NCBI RefSeq assembly: GCF_010500615.1
Contig: NZ_JAAGNX010000001.1
Coordinates: 759,531-823,530 of the forward strand
Length of the DNA: 64,000 nucleotides
Source of the DNA: Oceanipulchritudo coccoides
GTDB taxonomy: Bacteria; Verrucomicrobiota; Verrucomicrobiia; Opitutales; Oceanipulchritudinaceae
Direction of reading: 5' to 3'
Shown piece after piece: positions 2,333 through 61,191 of the stretch; the first letter of the stretch is position 1; each line of letters starts with the position of its first letter. Both the position numbers and the translations under genes were made by a program. The notes under the pieces were generated by a model, which searched no databases, had not been told where the DNA came from, and worked only from the letters and a program-made list of their open reading frames with translations.

Positions 2333-2527
2333 AAAACAAAGCCCTCCGGTGGTGCCGGAACGGAAATCCTAGCTCTTATCCTATTGTAAGAATAGGTGGG
2401 TGCCCCTGTTCCCGCTTTTGTCTTCCGGTTTACGGCATGACAGCCACGGGACTTTGGAACTCCCGGTGATGTTGAATCAGGGAAGAGCGCTGCAGAAATC
2501 GCTTCGCACACCCCAGAGGGCTTAAAA
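2333..2527 (+). ncRNA. candidate structured non-coding RNA (unidentified; 6S-like overall shape)
   Basis: This intergenic stretch has strong long-range pairing. AAGCCCTC (2339-2346) pairs perfectly with GAGGGCTT (2516-2523). One internal loop inside, GGTG-g-TGC (2348-2355) pairs with GCACACC (2506-2512) with one bulged G. Inside are hairpins CCTATT/AATAGG (2380-2396) and CGGGA/TCCCG (2447-2465). A closing stem, open centre and apical hairpins over about 185 nt recall 6S RNA, but no family signature was recognised. SRP, RNase P and tmRNA motifs are absent. It could also be a leader of the following gene. No promoter is obvious. Confidence 0.35.
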
Positions 2528-50825: not shown

Positions 50826-53800
50826 TTACTGCTTCAAAAGGACCGTTTCAGCCGAGCTGAAGTCGTATACCCAGCGGTTTCCAAAAATGTATGACCAGGA
50901 CCCGCTTTCAAAATCGTAGATCCATGGAAATTCCATCCAGGCCCATCCGGAAGTATCCGTGTAATTGTAGTCATTTCCTGATGACAGCTCACGGGCCTGT
51001 AAATTTCCGAAAAAATAAAACCATGAACCGGCATCGGCATTGTAAGCCCAGTTGTCATCGTGCCAGATAAATCCGGTGGCGAAGACGGGTGGGGGAGGGG
51101 GTCTCTTGACGGTCAGGATCCGCACGGCTCCCGCCGGAATATTGATGGCAATTGCATCGGCACTGCTTTCCAATGTGCCGAGCGGGACCTCCTGTGAACC
51201 GAACTGGTCGAAGACTTCCCACTTTCCTTGAGTACTGCCGAGTTTCAATTGCACGGTGCGATTTGTCGGAGTGAGCAAGTTCGAATCCAGCAGCGCGACA
51301 AAGTAGGTGTCCGGGTCGTCCTTCTGTTGTGTGACCTGCCAGAAGCATTCGTTGTCCACGTAAAACAGTTGGTTGCCGCGCTGGGTCACCAGCTCATTCA
51401 TAATGGAGTCCCTGGCCTCTTCCAGACTGGCAAATTCGCTCCATGTGTCGCCATTTGTTTGATACGCCCGGTTGCACCATGGCAGAGCCTCGAGCTCTGC
51501 CCGCGTGGCATAGGGAACGATCGGCGAAAATCCACTGGGCGAGGTGGGGAGAAGGTTATCCCAGCGCCTTTTTGCATTGAGGAGGATGGCGGTCCCGTCG
51601 ACATCGGGAACATCCGTGTAGGCGTCCCAGCAAGCCAGCCGATTGATGACATAATTCCTGGCTGGGGGCGCATACTTGTAGTAATCGTGATTGATGCTCT
51701 GCTCACGGAGACGGATAAAATTCGGATCGTGAAGGGCTGCCGCGACCGGTGAGAGGCCCTTGAGCTGATCGCGTTCAGGCGAGTTGGGATATACACCGCT
51801 TTCCACCAGACGGAGGAAGTTCCAGATGCCCTGACGGTAAGGGTTACTCCACTTCAACGCGGGGTCGTTGGTGTCTCCAAGCAGATACATCGGGTTGTCC
51901 CGGTTGATGATTGAGGTGATCCTGAATGAATTGGCGCCCATCAGATACTGGGAAAACAAGTGCCGGAAGACGACATGGCCATTGCGCATGCCGCCAAACT
52001 CGACAACCCGGTTGGCGGCAAGGTTGTCCCCAATCGAATTGCAGCCCCAGTTCTCCACGTCACCATTGAGCCACAGTCCCACTCGCTCGGCGAAGCTCAG
52101 GTCGGGCACTGTGACGTTTGAGTTCTCGACCCCGAGGGTCAGGACATCCTTGTAGGCGGGGAACAGGGCGCTGGCCTTGTCCGGTGCAAGTGCGGAAAAA
52201 ATGGCCCCCTTGCCACACAGCATGAAATAGGGCGGGGCCACTCCGAGTTGCGCGGAGCGGGCGAGCAGGGCGTCCATGTGGGGAATATATTCATCGATAT
52301 AGGTGCTTTCCCGGAGCTCCTTTGAACGGGCCAGCATGTAGGTTTCTCCCTCGAAGATGGAAGCTTCGAAGCAGTCAGCGAGCGTTTCCGGGTCGATGAA
52401 AATCCGTGACCCGTGCCCGACGATAAACATGAAGTGCACCTTTCGCTCAGCGAGGGCCCGACTGAAGTCAGTGAGGGCTTGCCGGAGGTCGATCGCCCCG
52501 TTGTTGGTCATCCGGTCCACTAACCCGTCAATGTCCCCGATTGAGGAGACAAACTTGACCCGCTCCGGTTGGTATCCGGAAACTCCACCCAGTTCGTCGC
52601 GCCATTCCTGGACGGCGTTGCGGATCGAGTTGGCCCGCGAGCGGATATTCGATTCTGTCATACGCCATCCCATGGAGCCGTTCATGGTACCGATGTAATA
52701 AATCGGTTTTCCCGCGACTGCCTCTGTGCCGGAAAAATTCTGAATATCCGCGTGGAGTTCATCCAGCGCATCGCGGACTTCCCTTAAGACGCCCCGGCCA
52801 TCGATCGTCTTGGCGTCCGTTGTCCACTGGCCCGTTGACAGGTCGACAAGATAGAAGTGATCATCCCCGTTTGGCGGCCCTGCAAGAATCATCTTGTCGA
52901 GCCCGCCGTTGCGGTCCTCGAGGCGTGCCCCGTCGGTGAAGTGATAGAGGGTGTGTGCGTATCCGTGATCGGTCGGACGGAAGACCCGGAACCTGTTCAG
53001 GTCGACGCTGTTTCGCGTGTCATAATTTACCAGATACAAATCATCCCCGTAAATGGTCAGCATTTCCGGCCCGGGATAATTGTTCCAATCCCTGAAATCG
53101 CCGGGAACACCCTGTTGCAGGAGGTATTTGCCCGTATTGGTGGTCTCGGAAACATTTTCGTAGTGGAGTTCCAGATCCAAGGCTTCCCCGGCAGGGAGCA
53201 TTGTCGAAAGGAGCCGGGTTCGCGCACCATCTTCCGGATGAAGAACGCCCCAGTGGGCGACGAGCTCGTCGTCCCCGTCGCCGTCCATGTCGTAGGCCCA
53301 TGGCAACTGCTTGTCGGTCCAGCCAAATGCCTCCTGGATGTTGTTGTAATTCAGCCCGTTTGAGCCCCAGTAGGCCGGTCGTTCCATCGTGTCCAAATCC
53401 GTGATCTCAAAGTAGTTTCCCCCGCTGAAATTCAACTCGTCGTAAAAGGAAATGACCTCGTCCCCGCCGATTCCGTCGTAGTTGCCCACCACTACACGCC
53501 GTATCACGCCCGGAACACTGCTCCTTGTCGAAGGGGGGAAGATCGTTCCCACCGTTGTTCCGTCTTCGGCAAGTATATAGATCCGGCCATTCACTCCACC
53601 TGTGACGATCCGGATTTCCCCGGCACTGTTCTTGCCCGTGTCCGCCGAATACAGCGCTCCCGGGAATCCGGTCCCCGTTTGTGGCGTCCAGTCGCCCAGC
53701 AGCACGCCGTCCCTGGACAGGATCCGCAGGTGGCCGTCTGTTCCGGGTAAAAGCACCTCTTCCCCGGGGTTGGCACTGTTGGCCTCCCCGGTCGCTAGCA

Positions 53801-54068
53801 TGATGCCAAAACTCGTCGGCGGAGTATATTGCCACAGCTGGTTGTTCTCCTCCGGATCCGAGATGGCCGGTCGGTCAAAGGCGATCACCTTCCCGTTCAC
53901 CGTCATACCCACCACATAATCCTTCGCCCCCACTGCATCAAAGTCCGCCGTCCGCACATGGATCAGGTTTTCCCCCTGTGTGGTGTAGGGCTGGAAGGTG
54001 CTCTGCCCACTCAGGACGCCTGCAGCAGTTGTTGAGAGTAATAAAATCAGGCTTTGGGCTAGCTTCAT
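50826..54068 (-). CDS. large secreted beta-propeller protein, candidate lambda-carrageenase-like (GH150) enzyme
   Basis: A 1080-residue protein with a signal peptide (MKLAQSLILLLSTTAAGVL). Residues 20-400 form a beta-propeller-like region with FG-GAP/VCBS-type loops (VVVGNYDGIGGDE, DMDGDGDDELVAHWG). Residues 450-960 form an alpha/beta part without a known catalytic signature (HFMFIVGHGSRIFID, LACWDAYTDVPDVDG). The C-terminal 85 residues are a W-rich module (GWAWMEFPWIYDFESGSW). An N-terminal propeller joined to a unique C-terminal part is what is described for lambda-carrageenase. With sulfatase and galactose genes nearby, that identity is attractive but unproven. Confidence 0.4.
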   Translation of the reverse strand: MKLAQSLILLLSTTAAGVLSGQSTFQPYTTQGENLIHVRTADFDAVGAKDYVVGMTVNGKVIAFDRPAISDPEENNQLWQYTPPTSFGIMLATGEANSANPGEEVLLPGTDGHLRILSRDGVLLGDWTPQTGTGFPGALYSADTGKNSAGEIRIVTGGVNGRIYILAEDGTTVGTIFPPSTRSSVPGVIRRVVVGNYDGIGGDEVISFYDELNFSGGNYFEITDLDTMERPAYWGSNGLNYNNIQEAFGWTDKQLPWAYDMDGDGDDELVAHWGVLHPEDGARTRLLSTMLPAGEALDLELHYENVSETTNTGKYLLQQGVPGDFRDWNNYPGPEMLTIYGDDLYLVNYDTRNSVDLNRFRVFRPTDHGYAHTLYHFTDGARLEDRNGGLDKMILAGPPNGDDHFYLVDLSTGQWTTDAKTIDGRGVLREVRDALDELHADIQNFSGTEAVAGKPIYYIGTMNGSMGWRMTESNIRSRANSIRNAVQEWRDELGGVSGYQPERVKFVSSIGDIDGLVDRMTNNGAIDLRQALTDFSRALAERKVHFMFIVGHGSRIFIDPETLADCFEASIFEGETYMLARSKELRESTYIDEYIPHMDALLARSAQLGVAPPYFMLCGKGAIFSALAPDKASALFPAYKDVLTLGVENSNVTVPDLSFAERVGLWLNGDVENWGCNSIGDNLAANRVVEFGGMRNGHVVFRHLFSQYLMGANSFRITSIINRDNPMYLLGDTNDPALKWSNPYRQGIWNFLRLVESGVYPNSPERDQLKGLSPVAAALHDPNFIRLREQSINHDYYKYAPPARNYVINRLACWDAYTDVPDVDGTAILLNAKRRWDNLLPTSPSGFSPIVPYATRAELEALPWCNRAYQTNGDTWSEFASLEEARDSIMNELVTQRGNQLFYVDNECFWQVTQQKDDPDTYFVALLDSNLLTPTNRTVQLKLGSTQGKWEVFDQFGSQEVPLGTLESSADAIAINIPAGAVRILTVKRPPPPPVFATGFIWHDDNWAYNADAGSWFYFFGNLQARELSSGNDYNYTDTSGWAWMEFPWIYDFESGSWSYIFGNRWVYDFSSAETVLLKQ

Positions 54069-54097
54069 ATATCAAGAATTAGGGTGGTGGGGTGGTT

Positions 54098-54385
54098 CTC
54101 CAGGAAGAGAGGGGGTGGACGGGAGAATCTTGATTTGCCCAAGTTGGAAGACAAGAATAAATGTAAGTGTTGCGTAAATATATAATCTTTTACATAAGGG
54201 CTGTATGGTGAAGGAGCGAAGGTGGATAAATGGATGGAGATGGGCGATTGGGCTGGTGCTGCTGCCTTCCCTGGGACAGGGGGCGGAGGTAAAGGTCGAG
54301 GATTTCAGTGGGATTCAAGCGTTCAAGATAAGGAATCTGGTGGGGACCGAGGTGAGTCTGACGAATTATGGGGCGCGGATTGTTT
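54098..54385. repeat. repeat unit, left half: galM promoter and 5' end (intact copy)
   Basis: The segment from about 54098 through the first 60 codons of galM is clearly related, with indels, to 58473-58750. Shared blocks include the TTGCGTAA element, the start ATGs (54205 and 58579) and CAGTGGGATT. This is the intact original. Confidence 0.8.
54170..54197 (+). promoter_or_regulatory. imperfect dyad in the galM promoter
   Basis: TTGCGTAAA (54170-54178) and TTTACATAA (54189-54197) form an imperfect dyad (7 of 9 positions) with a 10-nt spacer that contains TATAAT, 8 nt before the galM ATG. A degenerate copy is seen at 58544-58571. It may be an operator of the LacI-type regulator at 61264. Confidence 0.4.
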
Positions 54386-55317
54386 CTGTGGTTGTGGCGG
54401 ACCGGGTCGGTGAGAAGGCGGACGTGGTTTTGGGCTATGACTCGGTGGAGGGCTACATCAACGGGATCAAGCGACCATATCTGGGCTGCATGGTGGGCCG
54501 GACGGCGGGCCGGATCAGCGGGGGGCGATTCATGCTGGACGGGGAAGAAATCCAGCTGTCGGTGAATCGCGCACCGAACCACCTTCACGGCGGGGAGAAG
54601 GGCTTTGACAAAGTGGTGTGGGAGTCGGAAGTCGTGGAGAACGGGGTCAAGTTCAGTTATCTTTCACCTGACGGGGAGGAAGGGTATCCGGGGAACCTGT
54701 TTGTGGAAGTGGTTTACACGCTTGGAGAGGACAATGCGCTCCGGATCGCCTGCACGGGGAGGACAGACAAGGCAACGCCGTTAAGTCTGACCAATCATGC
54801 GTACTTCAACCTGGCTGGGGAGGGAAGTGGGACGGTGTTGGATCATATGCTGGCGATGCCCGGGGAGAGCTACATGCCGAGGGACGGAACGGGTATTCCG
54901 CTGGGAGGCTGGGAGAAAGTGGGGGACAGCCCGTTTGACTTCCGCGCACCGAAGCGGATCGGGCGGGACATTGTTTTGGACCACGAACAATTGATTCTGG
55001 CACGTGGATATGACCACAGTTGGGAAATTCCGGACACTGGGCTTGAGCTGGAGCTGGCGGCCACCCTGCATGAACCGGAGAGCGGGCGCTTTCTTGAGGT
55101 GTATACGGATGAGCCAACCTTGCATGTGTACACGGCCAATTATCTTGATGGACAGCTGAAAGGGAAATCCGGGAGGCCTTACGGGGCCCGCGAGGCAATT
55201 TGTCTGGAGACACAGCACCTGCCGGACAGTCCGAATCATCCAGATTGGCCCGACACGATCCTTCGGCCGGGTGAAAGCTACTCGAGCACGACGGTGTATA
55301 AATTCGGAGCGAAGTAG
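54205..55317 (+). CDS. galM: aldose 1-epimerase (galactose mutarotase), secreted
   Basis: A 370-residue protein with an N-terminal signal (WRWAIGLVLLPSLGQGAE). It has the mutarotase core: NYGARIVSVVV, RPYLGCMVGRTAGRI, APNHLHGGEKGFDKVVW (catalytic His) and LTNHAYFNLAGEG. It interconverts alpha and beta anomers of galactose or glucose, here in the periplasm. Related DNA recurs near 58.5 kb as a pseudogene. It is divergent from the propeller gene. Confidence 0.9.
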   Translation: MVKERRWINGWRWAIGLVLLPSLGQGAEVKVEDFSGIQAFKIRNLVGTEVSLTNYGARIVSVVVADRVGEKADVVLGYDSVEGYINGIKRPYLGCMVGRTAGRISGGRFMLDGEEIQLSVNRAPNHLHGGEKGFDKVVWESEVVENGVKFSYLSPDGEEGYPGNLFVEVVYTLGEDNALRIACTGRTDKATPLSLTNHAYFNLAGEGSGTVLDHMLAMPGESYMPRDGTGIPLGGWEKVGDSPFDFRAPKRIGRDIVLDHEQLILARGYDHSWEIPDTGLELELAATLHEPESGRFLEVYTDEPTLHVYTANYLDGQLKGKSGRPYGAREAICLETQHLPDSPNHPDWPDTILRPGESYSSTTVYKFGAK

Positions 55318-55359
55318 CCGGGCAGGCGGACTTTTGAAATCCCACGGATACAATTCATT

Positions 55360-56079
55360 ATGCAGACAACCACAATGACACAAAAAATGGCAAGACGAGC
55401 ACTCGGTACCCTTCTATTGATGACAATCGCAGGCCTCTCCATCGAGGGCGCCTCAACCAGCGTCAAGCTGCTGCAGGGAGGCTCTCCCGGATACCCGGTG
55501 GAGCTCAAGGAGCAGGGCGAAGAGGGCGTTGCGAGGATCAGGGTCGTCATTGGCGACGTGGGCAATGTCATGGACGCGAGTATCCAATCCGCGAGCCATC
55601 CCGCCTTCGGGGAGGCTGCTCTTGACGAAGTGAAAAATTGGCATTTTGCCCCGGCGACGGAGGACGGCGTACCGGTAAGCCAGACGGTGACCATCCCGAT
55701 CGAGTTCAAGTTGCCCTTTGAGGACAAGCTGAACGCTGCCATGAAACGGAAGGTATTCGTCAATCTCGACGAATTGACGGACACGGTGTACAGCGCAAAG
55801 AAGGATCTCGGCCAGCGGATCAAGCCGAAGGGAAAAAACAGCAAGACCGGTGCGTATCCCAAAAAACTGAAGGGCAGCGGCCTGAGCGACAAGGTCCGTG
55901 TCGAGTATGTGATTACACCCGAGGGCCGGGCGGTGAATCCGAAAGTCGTGCAGATCGAGCACCAGGAATTCATGATCCCGGCGATTATTCAGGCGGCCAA
56001 ATTCCGCTTCAATCCACCGACCTTGAAGGGCAAGCCCGTCTACGCGGAGGAATTTTACGTCATCGAGTTTTCCGAGTAA
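55360..56079 (+). CDS. secreted protein with two TonB-C-like domains
   Basis: A 239-residue protein with an N-terminal signal or anchor (RRALGTLLLMTIAGLSIEG). Two TonB C-terminal-like domains are visible. The first covers residues 38-130 (GVARIRVVIGDVGNVMDASI, then ALDEVKNWHFAPA). The second covers 165-239 (VRVEYVITPEGRAVNPKVV, then AAKFRFNPPTLKGKPV). It may deliver energy to an outer-membrane receptor or act as an envelope protein. Its 3' half is duplicated at 58748-58975. Confidence 0.75.
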   Translation: MQTTTMTQKMARRALGTLLLMTIAGLSIEGASTSVKLLQGGSPGYPVELKEQGEEGVARIRVVIGDVGNVMDASIQSASHPAFGEAALDEVKNWHFAPATEDGVPVSQTVTIPIEFKLPFEDKLNAAMKRKVFVNLDELTDTVYSAKKDLGQRIKPKGKNSKTGAYPKKLKGSGLSDKVRVEYVITPEGRAVNPKVVQIEHQEFMIPAIIQAAKFRFNPPTLKGKPVYAEEFYVIEFSE

Positions 56080-56106
56080 ACCCGATCAACCGGCAATGCC
56101 GATCGG
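55852..56106. repeat. repeat unit, right half: 3' end of TonB-C gene plus symporter tail (copy 1)
   Basis: This stretch is near-identical to 58748-59002 (constant offset of 2896 nt). The last 21 bases (56086-56106) are identical to the 3' end of the symporter gene (58982-59002), although no symporter gene is present here. Confidence 0.9.
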
Positions 56107-56107
56107 C

Positions 56108-56355
56108 CAGTTGACGAATGTCGCCGACCTCAGCCTTAAACCGTTCGAGTAGGAAAAGAACGAGATTGAGAAGACACTGGATGTGATGGATCCGCTCAAG
56201 CGTTACCGGGCTATTCCCTTACCCCGGACCGTGACTGGGTTCCTCCCGAGTGGCTTGCGGATCGCCAATTTGGATTCATGAAGTCCTTTGAAGAGGAGGA
56301 CTATCGCCTCGTTCAGCTTGATCTGGCTGCTCGCCCGGATAACCCCCATGCTTAG
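56108..56355 (+). pseudogene. truncated, frameshifted 3' remnant of an unidentified gene
   Basis: From the duplication breakpoint the frame reads QLTNVADLSLKPFE, a stop, EKNEIEKTLDVMDPLKRYRA, then in another frame YSLTPDRDWVPPEWLA and FMKSFEEEDYRLVQLDLA to a TAG at 56353. Together they resemble the C-terminal end of a real protein with one in-frame stop and one frameshift. The family is not recognised. The 5' part is missing at the breakpoint. Confidence 0.5.
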
Positions 56356-56448
56356 GCACGAACAAATGAAGCTCCTGGAAGATTTGGCATCTTTTCGTCT
56401 AAATTCAGGTAAAGGACCTGCTGCTCCATCTAAAGCGGGTCCAGCGAA

Positions 56449-56613
56449 ATGATGGGCATGGGAAATGCCAAGTCTATCCCCAGCACCGTGATCCCGGTTG
56501 GTGATCCGCAAGCTATTGAACATCATGCGGAACTCGCCAGAACTGGACCGGCTGTGGGGACATGCATAACGTCTATCAAAGGAAAGCTGCCTGATACCCG
56601 GGGGGGTATTTGA
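56449..56613 (+). other. 54-codon open frame, probable remnant
   Basis: ATG at 56449, TGA at 56611, product 54 residues (starts MMGMGNAKSIPSTVIPVGD). No ribosome site or known domain. It may be part of a decayed gene. Confidence 0.2.
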
Positions 56614-56788
56614 GGAATCTTTTATTGTAGAACACTAACGTGGGGTCCCTCTACAGGCCTGTCGGTTTGAGAGATATCTGGATTTCTCCATTTCCCACAC
56701 AGGCGCAGGCTTTCTTTGGGGTGATATTTGCTCGAATATTTTGCCATCGAAACCATCGATCTTGGAATTTACCATTAAGAGAGTCGCC

Positions 56789-56875
56789 TCAAACGGTGTC
56801 ATTCCCGATCACATTGCCTTGCGCCGCTACGAGGACGGGGAGCAAAAGCGAGGCGAAGACCCAGACCAGCCTCAT
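56789..56875 (-). pseudogene. signal-peptide relic of a secreted protein gene
   Basis: Beginning 16 nt beyond the GH43-like stop codon on the same strand, an ATG (56875) encodes MRLVWVFASLLLPVLVAAQG, a convincing signal peptide, then seven residues and a stop at 56789. The rest of the gene seems lost or shifted in frame. Confidence 0.45.
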
Positions 56876-56891
56876 CGAAGGTTGCTGGGCA

Positions 56892-58436
56892 CTATTGATC
56901 TGAGACCTCCAATCGAATAAAGACGGGGGCTCCGGTGGGCACCGAAATTTCGGCCGTGACTCGCTCAAAGATCTCGTCGAGGGTTTCCGTCCCGATTTCG
57001 AGCTCGGGCGCATCGACCCAAGAATCACTGAGGAGGGTGGAAGAAGTCTGCGGCATATAGGACACTCCGGGGTTGGCCGCGCTTCGCCGCCGGTAGCGGA
57101 ACTCAATCCCATTCTCAGTCGCCACCAAAGTCGGCAGGATATCGGGTTCGCTGGCGACGAGCGGATTCCCGCCGAGGGCAAACTCCATGAGGTTCAGGAG
57201 GCCGTCGCCATCTTCGTCCCCTTCCTTGTCGCCGACGCTATCGGGCCCATTCTCGACATTGTTCAGATTGGCCCAAGCGCGGAAGGGTTTGATTTCGCCA
57301 TCAATCTCCCACGACCATGGCGTCTGCAGGCTCCGGTCGGTTGTATTTTCACCCTCCCAGCGCACGGTCGGGTGGCCGTTTTCGTCCCAGTCAATCGGGC
57401 ACATGATGACGCGCCCCTTCTCGACCGGATGAGAGGTGACCTCCTGAAGCGGGTAGCGGTCGCCGCCATAGACCCACTGCTCCCCAATCTTCATGATCCA
57501 GCGATGCTGCGAGGCATGCGAGCGCATGATCCGGTTGGCTTCCGAGCCAAGTGGACGGAAAGGATTCATCCCGATTTGGATCTCTGCGGGCGCATCGTTC
57601 GGGTCGGGAGTATAGGTCGGATACCAGGGGCCTTCCAAAGCTGGAGCGGTTCGGTAATAGCAATCAGACCCCATCCAACCGCCGACCCCGTCGAAAGACA
57701 TATAGTAAATGTTGTTTCTCTTGAACAACCAGAACGCCTCGCGCTGTTTCTCCACCTGATCGGAAACGATCGGAGGGAGGATGTTGTTGCTGGCGTCGCG
57801 CTTCAAGCCCGTGAATTGCTCGTTCAATTCAAAGATATCGACAAAGCGGGTTGAACCTCCAGTCGGGTCGTCGAGTTCCGCACATTTCATCGAGACAATG
57901 ATAAAGGCCCGGTTGCCTTCACGATAAGCGGACATGCCGCCCGACTCATAGTGCGTGAAGGTATCATTGGCAACATACCCCGGGTGTCGCGGCGTCAAAT
58001 TCACCTTGGGGGTGATTTGAGTATAGGTGCCCTCGACATCGTTGGTATCGCTTTCATAGAACCAGATACCCTTCCCGATTAAGACGTACCGGTCGGTATT
58101 CGGGTTATAAAGAAGAGTCACATTTTTCGTTCCCTCGGACGACTTGGCCAAGCGCCTTACCCACGTCCAGTCATCACTGCCAAAGGTCTTGGATTTATAC
58201 AGATGGATGGAATCATTAGTGGGATTGCTGCCGACCCAATAGTAGGTGTCGCCCACAATCGTAATGTGCTGGCCCATACTGGCATTGATCTCAATCCCGC
58301 GGTCATCATACCACTGAACGTCGTTCGTGATCGTCGCGGCTTCCACGACCGAAACAACCGAAAGGAACGCCATTGTGGCAAGGGAAAGATCGCGCCAGCT
58401 CTGGCGGAAGACTTGTTTGTAAAACAACATTTTCAT
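56892..58436 (-). CDS. secreted GH43-like glycosidase (galactan 1,3-beta-galactosidase type)
   Basis: The ATG at 58436 is preferred to an in-frame TTG at 58448. The product has about 514 residues: a signal peptide, then a five-bladed propeller opening WYDDRGIEINASMG and TYYWVGSNP, a pattern like the INAHGGG...YYWYGE of GH43 subfamily 24 exo-beta-1,3-galactanases. The usual His is replaced by Ser here. Near the C-terminus is a calcium-type hinge (DEDGDGLLNLMEFALGG) and a beta domain common in these organisms. It is likely to act on galactan. Confidence 0.65.
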   Translation of the reverse strand: MKMLFYKQVFRQSWRDLSLATMAFLSVVSVVEAATITNDVQWYDDRGIEINASMGQHITIVGDTYYWVGSNPTNDSIHLYKSKTFGSDDWTWVRRLAKSSEGTKNVTLLYNPNTDRYVLIGKGIWFYESDTNDVEGTYTQITPKVNLTPRHPGYVANDTFTHYESGGMSAYREGNRAFIIVSMKCAELDDPTGGSTRFVDIFELNEQFTGLKRDASNNILPPIVSDQVEKQREAFWLFKRNNIYYMSFDGVGGWMGSDCYYRTAPALEGPWYPTYTPDPNDAPAEIQIGMNPFRPLGSEANRIMRSHASQHRWIMKIGEQWVYGGDRYPLQEVTSHPVEKGRVIMCPIDWDENGHPTVRWEGENTTDRSLQTPWSWEIDGEIKPFRAWANLNNVENGPDSVGDKEGDEDGDGLLNLMEFALGGNPLVASEPDILPTLVATENGIEFRYRRRSAANPGVSYMPQTSSTLLSDSWVDAPELEIGTETLDEIFERVTAEISVPTGAPVFIRLEVSDQ

Positions 58437-58472
58437 GTTTGAACTCAAGGGTCAGGGTTATAGGGTGGATTC

Positions 58473-58750
58473 TCCCTTAAGAGAGGGGTTTGAGGCAGGA
58501 ATCTTGAATTGCCGGGAAGTGAGGACAAGCCAAAATGTAATTGTTGCGTAATAAATGTATCTTTTGCATGAAGAGAGTATGATGAAAAGGGAAGCTGGAA
58601 AAACGGATGGAAATGGGCCTTGGGGCTGTTGATGATGCCACCATTCGGGCATGGGGCGGAGGTAAAAATTATGGCATTCAGTGGGATTAATGGGTATTAT
58701 TTAAGGAGCTGTGAGGGGACGGAGGTGTGTGCGACGAACTACGGGGCGCG
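58473..58750 (+). pseudogene. galM pseudogene (promoter and 5' end only)
   Basis: The sequence follows the galM promoter and 5' end (copy at 54098). ATG at 58579 matches the galM ATG at 54205, but a frameshift yields a stop after 17 codons. Similarity ends at 58750 (GGGGCGCG), where the TonB-C fragment begins. Confidence 0.85.
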
Positions 58751-58975
58751 TATCCCAAAAACCTGAAGGGCCGCGGCCTGAGCGACAGGGTCCGTGTCGA
58801 GTATGCGATTACACCCGAGGGACGGGCAGTTAATCCGAAGGTCGTGCAGATCGAGCACCAGGAATTCATGGTCCCGGCGATCATTCATGCGGCCAAGTTC
58901 CGGTTCAATCCACCGACCTTGAAGGGCAAGCCCGTCTACGCGGAGGAATTTTACGTCATCGAGTTTTCCGAGTAG
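58748..58975 (+). pseudogene. TonB-C gene fragment (second copy, N-terminus lost)
   Basis: It encodes the last 75 or so residues of the TonB-C protein with few changes (VRVEYAITPEGRAVNPKVV, then PTLKGKPVYAEEF). An ATG in the galM part (58727) could give 82 residues, but there is no signal peptide or ribosome site. It is joined to the galM part by a deletion of 1478 bp, relative to the original. Confidence 0.85.
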
Positions 58976-58981
58976 GCTCAA

Positions 58982-61015
58982 TCAACCGGCAATGCCGATC
59001 GGGCTGAAGACCACGTAGAGCATCAAGGTCAGGATAACGACTCCGATGCCGGCGATCCGGGCCCCTTTGGAGGCTTCCAGGGCAACGGCGTTGTTGGCCT
59101 TGAAATCAATCGGCTTATCCAGCGGCTTGATGAGGGTGATGATTCCCATGACCAGAATGCATAGGAAAAAGCAGATTGCCATGCGGTTGAGGAAGTTGAT
59201 GTCTGGCGCGGCAAATTTCAGGGCCGGGTAGGCGATGATGTTGGTTAGGAGGCCGACTACACCGCATATGCGGGGTCCCCGGTGAAACAGCAATCCGAAG
59301 GCGAAGACCGCGAGGATGCCCGGGGAGATGAGGCCCTGGCCTTCCTGGATGACCGTGAAGATGCTGTTGCTGATCTTGGGATTTCCCAGCATCGGGGCAA
59401 GGACGACGGCAATGACCGCGAAGACCGCCACGCTGGACCGGCCGAGCACGACAATCGTTCTCTGGGAGGCGTTCTTGTTGATGTGCTGCTTGAAGATATC
59501 CATCGAGAAAATGGTCGAGGCCGCATTCAGCATGGCGGCAAGTGAACTGACAACCGCTCCAAGAAGAGCCGCGAGGACAAAGCCGAGGAGGCCGGTTCCC
59601 TGAGGGAGGACATTGGAGAGCAGCTGTCCGAGGGCCGTGTCGTATTTGTATCCAAGTAGTTTTTCCGTGGATACAGAGGCATTGGATGCCCTGACTGTCT
59701 CGTTGTAGACGGCAAGCTCAGCCGCCAGGGCTGGATTGGCGCTGGCAAAAGCGTAGTCGTCGCTCTCAAAGACGACCGCTGCGGAGACGCTGGCCTGAGC
59801 CGCATTGAATTGATCCTGGCTGAGCGGGAACACGTGCCCGTTGAGCATTTTTGCACTGTTGACGCTGTCGAGATCCGGGTAGACGGCCAGGACATAGCGG
59901 CTGTCAGGGATCGAAGCCAATTGCTCCACCGAGGGGGCCATTTCCACGCTGACGACTGCGCTGGCCGGGTTGGCGGCAAGATACTTTGCAAGGACCGGGC
60001 CGTTATCCTTGCCAGCGGCAATGTGCATGTTGCCGGCAAACAGATTGAAGGCCATGATGCCGGGAACAACGATGACAAACGGGATCAGGAGCTTCATGAA
60101 GGCCGAGAAGACAATGCCCTTCTGTCCTTCAGCGAGCGAGGCCGAGCCGAGTGTCCGTTGTGTGATGTACTGGTTTAGTCCCCAGTAATAGAAATTGGGA
60201 ATCCAGAGGCCGAGCAGCAGGGCCGTCCATGGCAAGGTGCTGTCGGTCGCCGGCAGGAACATGTTCAGGCGAGTACTGTTCAGCTCCATGAAGCGGGCAA
60301 AGGCGCCCGTTTCCGGACTAAAAGTACGGATGACCACCTCGCCGGTCTTCACATCGGCAATGCCTGCCAGCGATTCGGCGCTGCCCAGCATCCCAAAGGA
60401 AAAATACATGATGATACCGCCTCCGATGATGAGCGCGCTGCCCTGGATAAGGTCGGCCCACGCACAGGCCTTGAGCCCACCGGCGATGACGTAGATCATC
60501 GCAATCAAACCAATCACAAGCGCGCCCAGCTGAAGCGAAATATCGACGCCGCGCTCAGCCGCGATTGTCCGGATGGTGAGGGCACCCGAGTATGTGACCG
60601 CTCCCAGAAGTAGTAAATAAATGAATACCGTTCCCGCGGCCATGATGATGCGGGCCCCCGAATTGTAGCGGTATTCCAGGAATTCCGGCATTGTGTAAAT
60701 GCCCGCCTTCAGGAAATAGGGGAGGAAGGCAAAAGCCACCACGACCAGCGTGATTGCCGCCATCCACTCGTAACTCGCAATCGCGATGCCAATGTGGCTC
60801 GCCGCGTTGCCCGACATCCCCACGAATTGTTCGGTGGAGATGTTGGCGGCGATCAGCGAAAAGCCGATCAGCCACCACTTCAGTCCGCGGCCAGCCAGGA
60901 AATAGTCACTGGCAGCGTGTTCGCCTTTCAGGTCCTCGCCGCGGCTTTTATATAGCCCGATGGAGACAACAGCCGCGACAAACGCGAAGAATACAATCAG
61001 GTCAAGGATGCTCAT
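58982..61015 (-). CDS. sodium:sugar symporter (SSS/SGLT family)
   Basis: The ATG at 61015 gives MSILDLIVFFAFVAAVV at the first membrane helix. The 677-residue protein has about fourteen membrane segments, with SLIAANISTEQFVGMSG and the sodium-binding area SSLAAMLNAASTIFSMDI. A polar stretch of about 125 residues (roughly 365-490) lies where vSGLT has about 35, likely an extra periplasmic domain. It probably imports a galactose-type sugar. It is divergent from the LacI gene. Confidence 0.85.
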   Translation of the reverse strand: MSILDLIVFFAFVAAVVSIGLYKSRGEDLKGEHAASDYFLAGRGLKWWLIGFSLIAANISTEQFVGMSGNAASHIGIAIASYEWMAAITLVVVAFAFLPYFLKAGIYTMPEFLEYRYNSGARIIMAAGTVFIYLLLLGAVTYSGALTIRTIAAERGVDISLQLGALVIGLIAMIYVIAGGLKACAWADLIQGSALIIGGGIIMYFSFGMLGSAESLAGIADVKTGEVVIRTFSPETGAFARFMELNSTRLNMFLPATDSTLPWTALLLGLWIPNFYYWGLNQYITQRTLGSASLAEGQKGIVFSAFMKLLIPFVIVVPGIMAFNLFAGNMHIAAGKDNGPVLAKYLAANPASAVVSVEMAPSVEQLASIPDSRYVLAVYPDLDSVNSAKMLNGHVFPLSQDQFNAAQASVSAAVVFESDDYAFASANPALAAELAVYNETVRASNASVSTEKLLGYKYDTALGQLLSNVLPQGTGLLGFVLAALLGAVVSSLAAMLNAASTIFSMDIFKQHINKNASQRTIVVLGRSSVAVFAVIAVVLAPMLGNPKISNSIFTVIQEGQGLISPGILAVFAFGLLFHRGPRICGVVGLLTNIIAYPALKFAAPDINFLNRMAICFFLCILVMGIITLIKPLDKPIDFKANNAVALEASKGARIAGIGVVILTLMLYVVFSPIGIAG

Positions 61016-61191
61016 GATGGGGTTTTGTATGGTTGTATTGGGGAGTTCTCGTTCAGAATTGGGCGGCAGCAAGAGCCTGTGCCGGCTTTCGTTCGTTTCC
61101 TTAAGTGAAGTTCTGTTGTAATACAAACGAAAAAGTTACGAACGGAGGTAGCCGGCAGGCTGTGCAAATTCATGCCATCCTTCTCGAAACC

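Follow-up and report, generated by a model that had tools for sequence, protein, structure and literature searches.

The polysaccharide locus of Oceanipulchritudo coccoides raises the question of how the promoter and 5' end of an aldose 1-epimerase gene (galM) came to be fused to the 3' end of a TonB_C gene, and whether the product is a gene or a relic. All coordinates below refer to the window, which is the whole stretch of 64,000 nucleotides that was analyzed. A first-pass annotation had read the fusion as a hybrid pseudogene left by a recent segmental duplication followed by a deletion, and we assessed this reading by self-comparison, reading-frame analysis and searches of related genomes.

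Two duplicated blocks form the hybrid

The comparison of the 50-64 kb region with itself revealed exactly two families of direct repeats and no inverted repeats, and BLASTN refined their limits. The 3' block matches 55849-56106 with 58745-59002 (93.0% identity, E 2e-108), and the 5' block matches 54072-54380 with 58445-58753 (73.2%, E 4e-41), with the order and orientation of the blocks alike in both copies. When the hybrid was used as a query against the whole 3.5-Mb genome, only two other places matched (E 3e-107 and 3e-39), the remaining matches having E values of about 0.9, so chance similarity is excluded. The self-alignment that the first-pass annotation had proposed as a check thus yields two strong blocks rather than short random similarity, and the duplication within the locus is borne out. 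The hybrid occupies 58445-59002 and is built from the galM and promoter block (54072-54377) and the 3' third of the TonB_C gene (55852-56106). The limits first given for the TonB_C block (55852-56106 and 58748-59002) were correct; the galM block begins at 54072 and 58445 instead of 54098 and 58473. The high identity that the first-pass annotation had named as support for both blocks holds for the TonB_C block, whereas the galM block is only about 75% identical and contains indels.

The 5' block starts with the intergenic, divergent promoter part, which spans 54072-54204 in the intact copy and 58445-58577 in the hybrid copy (about 77% identity). The motif AATGTAANTGTTGCGTAA is conserved between the two promoter regions. 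We considered it as a regulon operator and rejected it, as these are its only two exact sites in the genome and other matches occur at control level. No sigma-70-type promoter was found in either copy. As to RNA genes, the window has no tRNA, and its only Rfam match is a 6S RNA far from the hybrid (2339-2522, minus strand; RF00013, 64 bits).

The intact copy encodes two proteins on the plus strand. The 370-aa galM product (54205-55317) matches PF01263 over residues 40-366 (E 1.3e-82), that is, over nearly the whole protein, which places it among the aldose 1-epimerases (GalM); it also matches TIGR02636 with an E value of 1e-94, under that model's curated cut-off. The adjoining gene (55360-56079) encodes a 239-aa protein with two TonB_C stretches, which belongs to the TonB_C family by its PF03544 domain (E 9e-29).

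The junction and the reading frames of the hybrid

The two halves of the hybrid meet at a GCG common to galM and the TonB_C gene (58748-58750). On the galM side the copies are offset by 4373 bp (GGGGCGCG at 54370-54377 and 58743-58750), and on the TonB_C side by 2896 bp (GCGTATCCC from 55852 and from 58748), so that 1477 bp are missing in comparison with the intact copy. The sequences across the junction are GGGGCGCGTATCCC in the hybrid, GGGGCGCGGATTG in galM and GGTGCGTATCCC in the TonB_C gene. The internal deletion and the GCG microhomology that had been annotated are real, the latter being visible as a 3-bp overlap in the alignment; the TonB_C-side offset was also exact, and the galM-side offset and the size of the loss, given as 4374 and about 1478 bp, are each one base smaller.

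On the plus strand, the galM remnant (58578-58750), which comprises the signal peptide and first codons, is about 74% identical to the galM 5' end and carries a frameshift near its start, caused by a 1-base deletion. Translation from its own ATG runs for 17 codons before a stop. Past the deletion, the galM-matching frame ends in GTEVCATNYGARIPKT-stop, four codons beyond the junction (NYGARIPKT-stop). The TonB_C remnant (58748-58975, plus strand) retains the second TonB_C domain only (PF03544 E 4e-9) and is 93% identical to 55852-56079. It lies in a different frame from both galM frames, neither of which enters it. The only start for this frame is a GTG at 58727, whose ribosome site is poorly spaced. 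A functional gene fusion was rejected on the basis of this out-of-frame junction. The hybrid has both homology to intact parent genes in the same genome and disabling lesions in its reading frame. It is a dead pseudogene without coding continuity, in agreement with its original annotation as a pseudogene. The search of 54 relatives with the hybrid DNA gave no match outside its own genome, which says little because none of the 54 carries the locus.

The symporter tail indicates the original site

The shared 3' block does not end with the TonB_C gene: beyond its stop codon it takes in the final 21 bp of a convergent sodium:solute symporter gene (58982-61126, minus strand; PF00474 E 8e-53), which is followed by genes for a LacI-type regulator and then a sulfatase. 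In the intact copy the corresponding segment (56085-56106, minus strand) holds these 21 bp and one further base (PIGIAG-stop), is identical at 22 of 22 positions to 58981-59002, and has no symporter gene attached. A congeneric genome encodes a symporter homologue, 82% identical, whose C-terminus is FSPLGIAG, and the closer of the homologues from other groups and phyla share the ending FSPxGxA[K/R/G]-stop. Judged by these C-termini, the 21-bp tail is native to the symporter and 56085-56106 is an orphan. Most simply, then, the intact galM-TonB_C pair at 54-56 kb would be the derived copy, duplicated away from the symporter, and the wreck would stand at the original site. The tail within the block, and the polarity that results from it, had not been part of the first-pass account. 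A 21-bp scar of a neighboring gene can thus distinguish an original from a derived copy.

On the left, two unrelated, divergently transcribed enzyme genes, one carrageenase-like and one GH43-like, adjoin the block, and similarity ends at their start codons or a few bases short of them. The carrageenase-like gene (50826-54068, minus strand) encodes a 1080-aa secreted protein that shows a weak match to a lambda-carrageenase middle domain (PF25290, E 1.5e-9) and a sub-threshold beta-propeller match, and has no sequence relative among solved structures; it is possibly a distant carrageenase-like enzyme. The GH43-like gene (56892-58448, minus strand) lies between the copies, divergent from the hybrid. 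Its predicted secreted product matches no Pfam family at E values up to 0.001 and a solved glycosyl hydrolase, 3nqh_A, weakly (E 6e-6), a match that neither proves nor contradicts the GH43-like label. It appears improbable that the duplication owed its retention to promoter capture in the polysaccharide locus, in which a second copy of a shared divergent promoter came to lie before another secreted enzyme gene and the galM-TonB_C wreck was left as a by-product.

The orphan symporter tail is separated from the GH43-like gene by a degenerate spacer of 785 bp (56107-56891) without a recognizable gene, the short frames of which gave no Pfam match. Within it, a 147-bp stretch (56556-56702) recurs once in the genome, at C1:389428-389572 (77% identity), in the intergenic gap before a gene named Fic-like from its translation; this repeat is possibly a remnant of a mobile element. 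An IS-mediated duplication was considered and set aside, as 50-64 kb contains no inverted repeat of at least 25 bp and no transposase family among its scanned proteins.

Unequal divergence and the history of the locus

The two halves of the hybrid have diverged unequally from their intact counterparts. The galM block has 74 mismatches in 304 aligned columns (228 of 302 sites identical) and several indels of 1-2 bases, whereas the TonB_C block has 17 mismatches in 255 sites and no indel (p 8e-9 over all sites). The difference persists at third codon positions, with 19/56 (34%) in the galM block against 9/75 (12%) in the TonB_C block (p 0.0045), and is not significant at fourfold sites alone (4/17 against 4/32, p 0.42). 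The TonB_C block has a pN of 0.034 and a pS of 0.14, values compatible with a functional copy paired with one that lost its function recently. One recent duplication after which the hybrid decayed neutrally cannot account for the divergence of both blocks: the age first assigned to the event does not fit a galM half of this identity, nor does one uniform event fit the two halves. Either a later homogenization of the TonB_C end or a longer constraint on the TonB_C genes until a late deletion is needed. Attempts to polarize the amino-acid differences between the copies gave no decision, the available homologues being too distant.

We consider the following history probable. In the ancestor, the present 58.4-59.0 kb region would have held the divergent promoter, galM and the TonB_C gene, arranged tail-to-tail with the symporter. 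A local duplication would have copied a segment reaching from just before the start codon of the divergent neighbor to 21 bp inside the symporter gene. Of the two copies, the upstream one (54.1-56.1 kb) would have remained intact, retaining the orphan symporter tail, while the redundant copy beside the symporter decayed by frameshift and substitutions and lost 1477 bp, from galM codon 58 to the second TonB_C domain, through illegitimate recombination at the GCG. Gene conversion with the intact gene as donor probably reset the TonB_C end of the wreck or kept it from diverging. The two blocks, their junction, the dead frames and the native symporter tail are observed, whereas we infer the sequence of events, the way in which the deletion arose and the conversion; the GH43-like gene and the spacer between the copies fall outside this account. 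Conversion is only suggestive, given that the fourfold sites do not differ significantly and that the copies disagree at four of the six bases spanning the TonB_C stop and spacer (56079-56084). A change point in divergence was located at column 293 (support 283-309), with the junction at 304, and was set aside as evidence for conversion, since the gene itself changes at the junction and the change therefore falls there under any model.

A possible but less favored history dispenses with conversion: duplication was followed by one late deletion, both TonB_C genes having long been under selection while the galM leader and promoter drifted. This requires the fewest events, expects faster drift of leader and promoter, and sits well with the fourfold sites and with a TonB_C pN well under pS. 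However, the third-position contrast is not readily given by protein constraint alone, and the indels are confined to the galM block. A one-step origin is rather unlikely: a break in a galM remnant already old and decayed would have been repaired by switching template at GCG to the intact TonB_C gene and copying through to the homologous symporter end. One event would then explain both the junction overlap and the drop in divergence there, but the change point does not discriminate and an overlap of 3 bp gives weak support to template switching. That the hybrid is a small functional gene for an 82-aa TonB_C domain (58727-58975) is very improbable: the frame is open, its final 23 codons match those of the intact gene exactly and the PF03544 match is retained, but the product would lack a signal peptide and the first domain, its GTG start lies about two bases behind GGAGG, and the hybrid is unmatched in the 54 relatives. 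An assembly chimera is scarcely credible, for although the draft assembly comprises 52 contigs, this region is internal to one of 1.46 Mb and the copies differ by 7-25%, too much for a collapse of identical repeats.

Comparison with other genomes and known systems

The prediction that relatives would show a single galM-TonB_C-symporter order was not confirmed, as this order was found in no relative searched. Among 79 public symporter loci, a galM homologue was present in the fetched flanks of 10, mostly adjoining a symporter gene, and the TonB_C gene in the flanks of none. The same-genus symporter homologue, on a 12-kb contig, has neither gene adjoining. The ancestral order proposed above consequently rests on the symporter tail and the anatomy of the locus. 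Across 372 genomes of the order, the TonB_C protein had no relative above 43% identity and no close relative outside its own genome, and a search of a genome-contig collection gave no confirmed match. Its best relative is a second protein of the same genome (43% identical), encoded on contig C2 (L035 7969-8700; G000:C2:809995) directly before a sulfatase-like gene and not beside galM, which links the protein type to sulfatases at that second locus.

In the literature we found nothing directly on such an arrangement, and two known systems offer the nearest comparisons. The locus resembles galM-linked sodium:solute symporter loci (PF01263 near PF00474) in having a galM homologue near a symporter; in those loci galM mostly shares the symporter's strand and has no TonB_C gene with it, whereas here galM and the TonB_C gene stand tail-to-tail with the symporter. 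The hybrid itself resembles duplicated (unprocessed) bacterial pseudogenes with an internal deletion: two parent genes are recognizable, the junction has a short overlap, and a frameshift and early stops mark a sequence redundant with a nearby intact copy. It differs from them in that two adjacent genes have had their ends fused by the deletion and its halves are unequally diverged. The hybrid raises no new question of mechanism and offers a clean case in which a sulfated-polysaccharide locus records local duplication and decay, possibly with gene conversion. It is an ordinary duplication-and-decay scar of a well-known kind and not a novel type of gene, with a history older and more complex than had been described.
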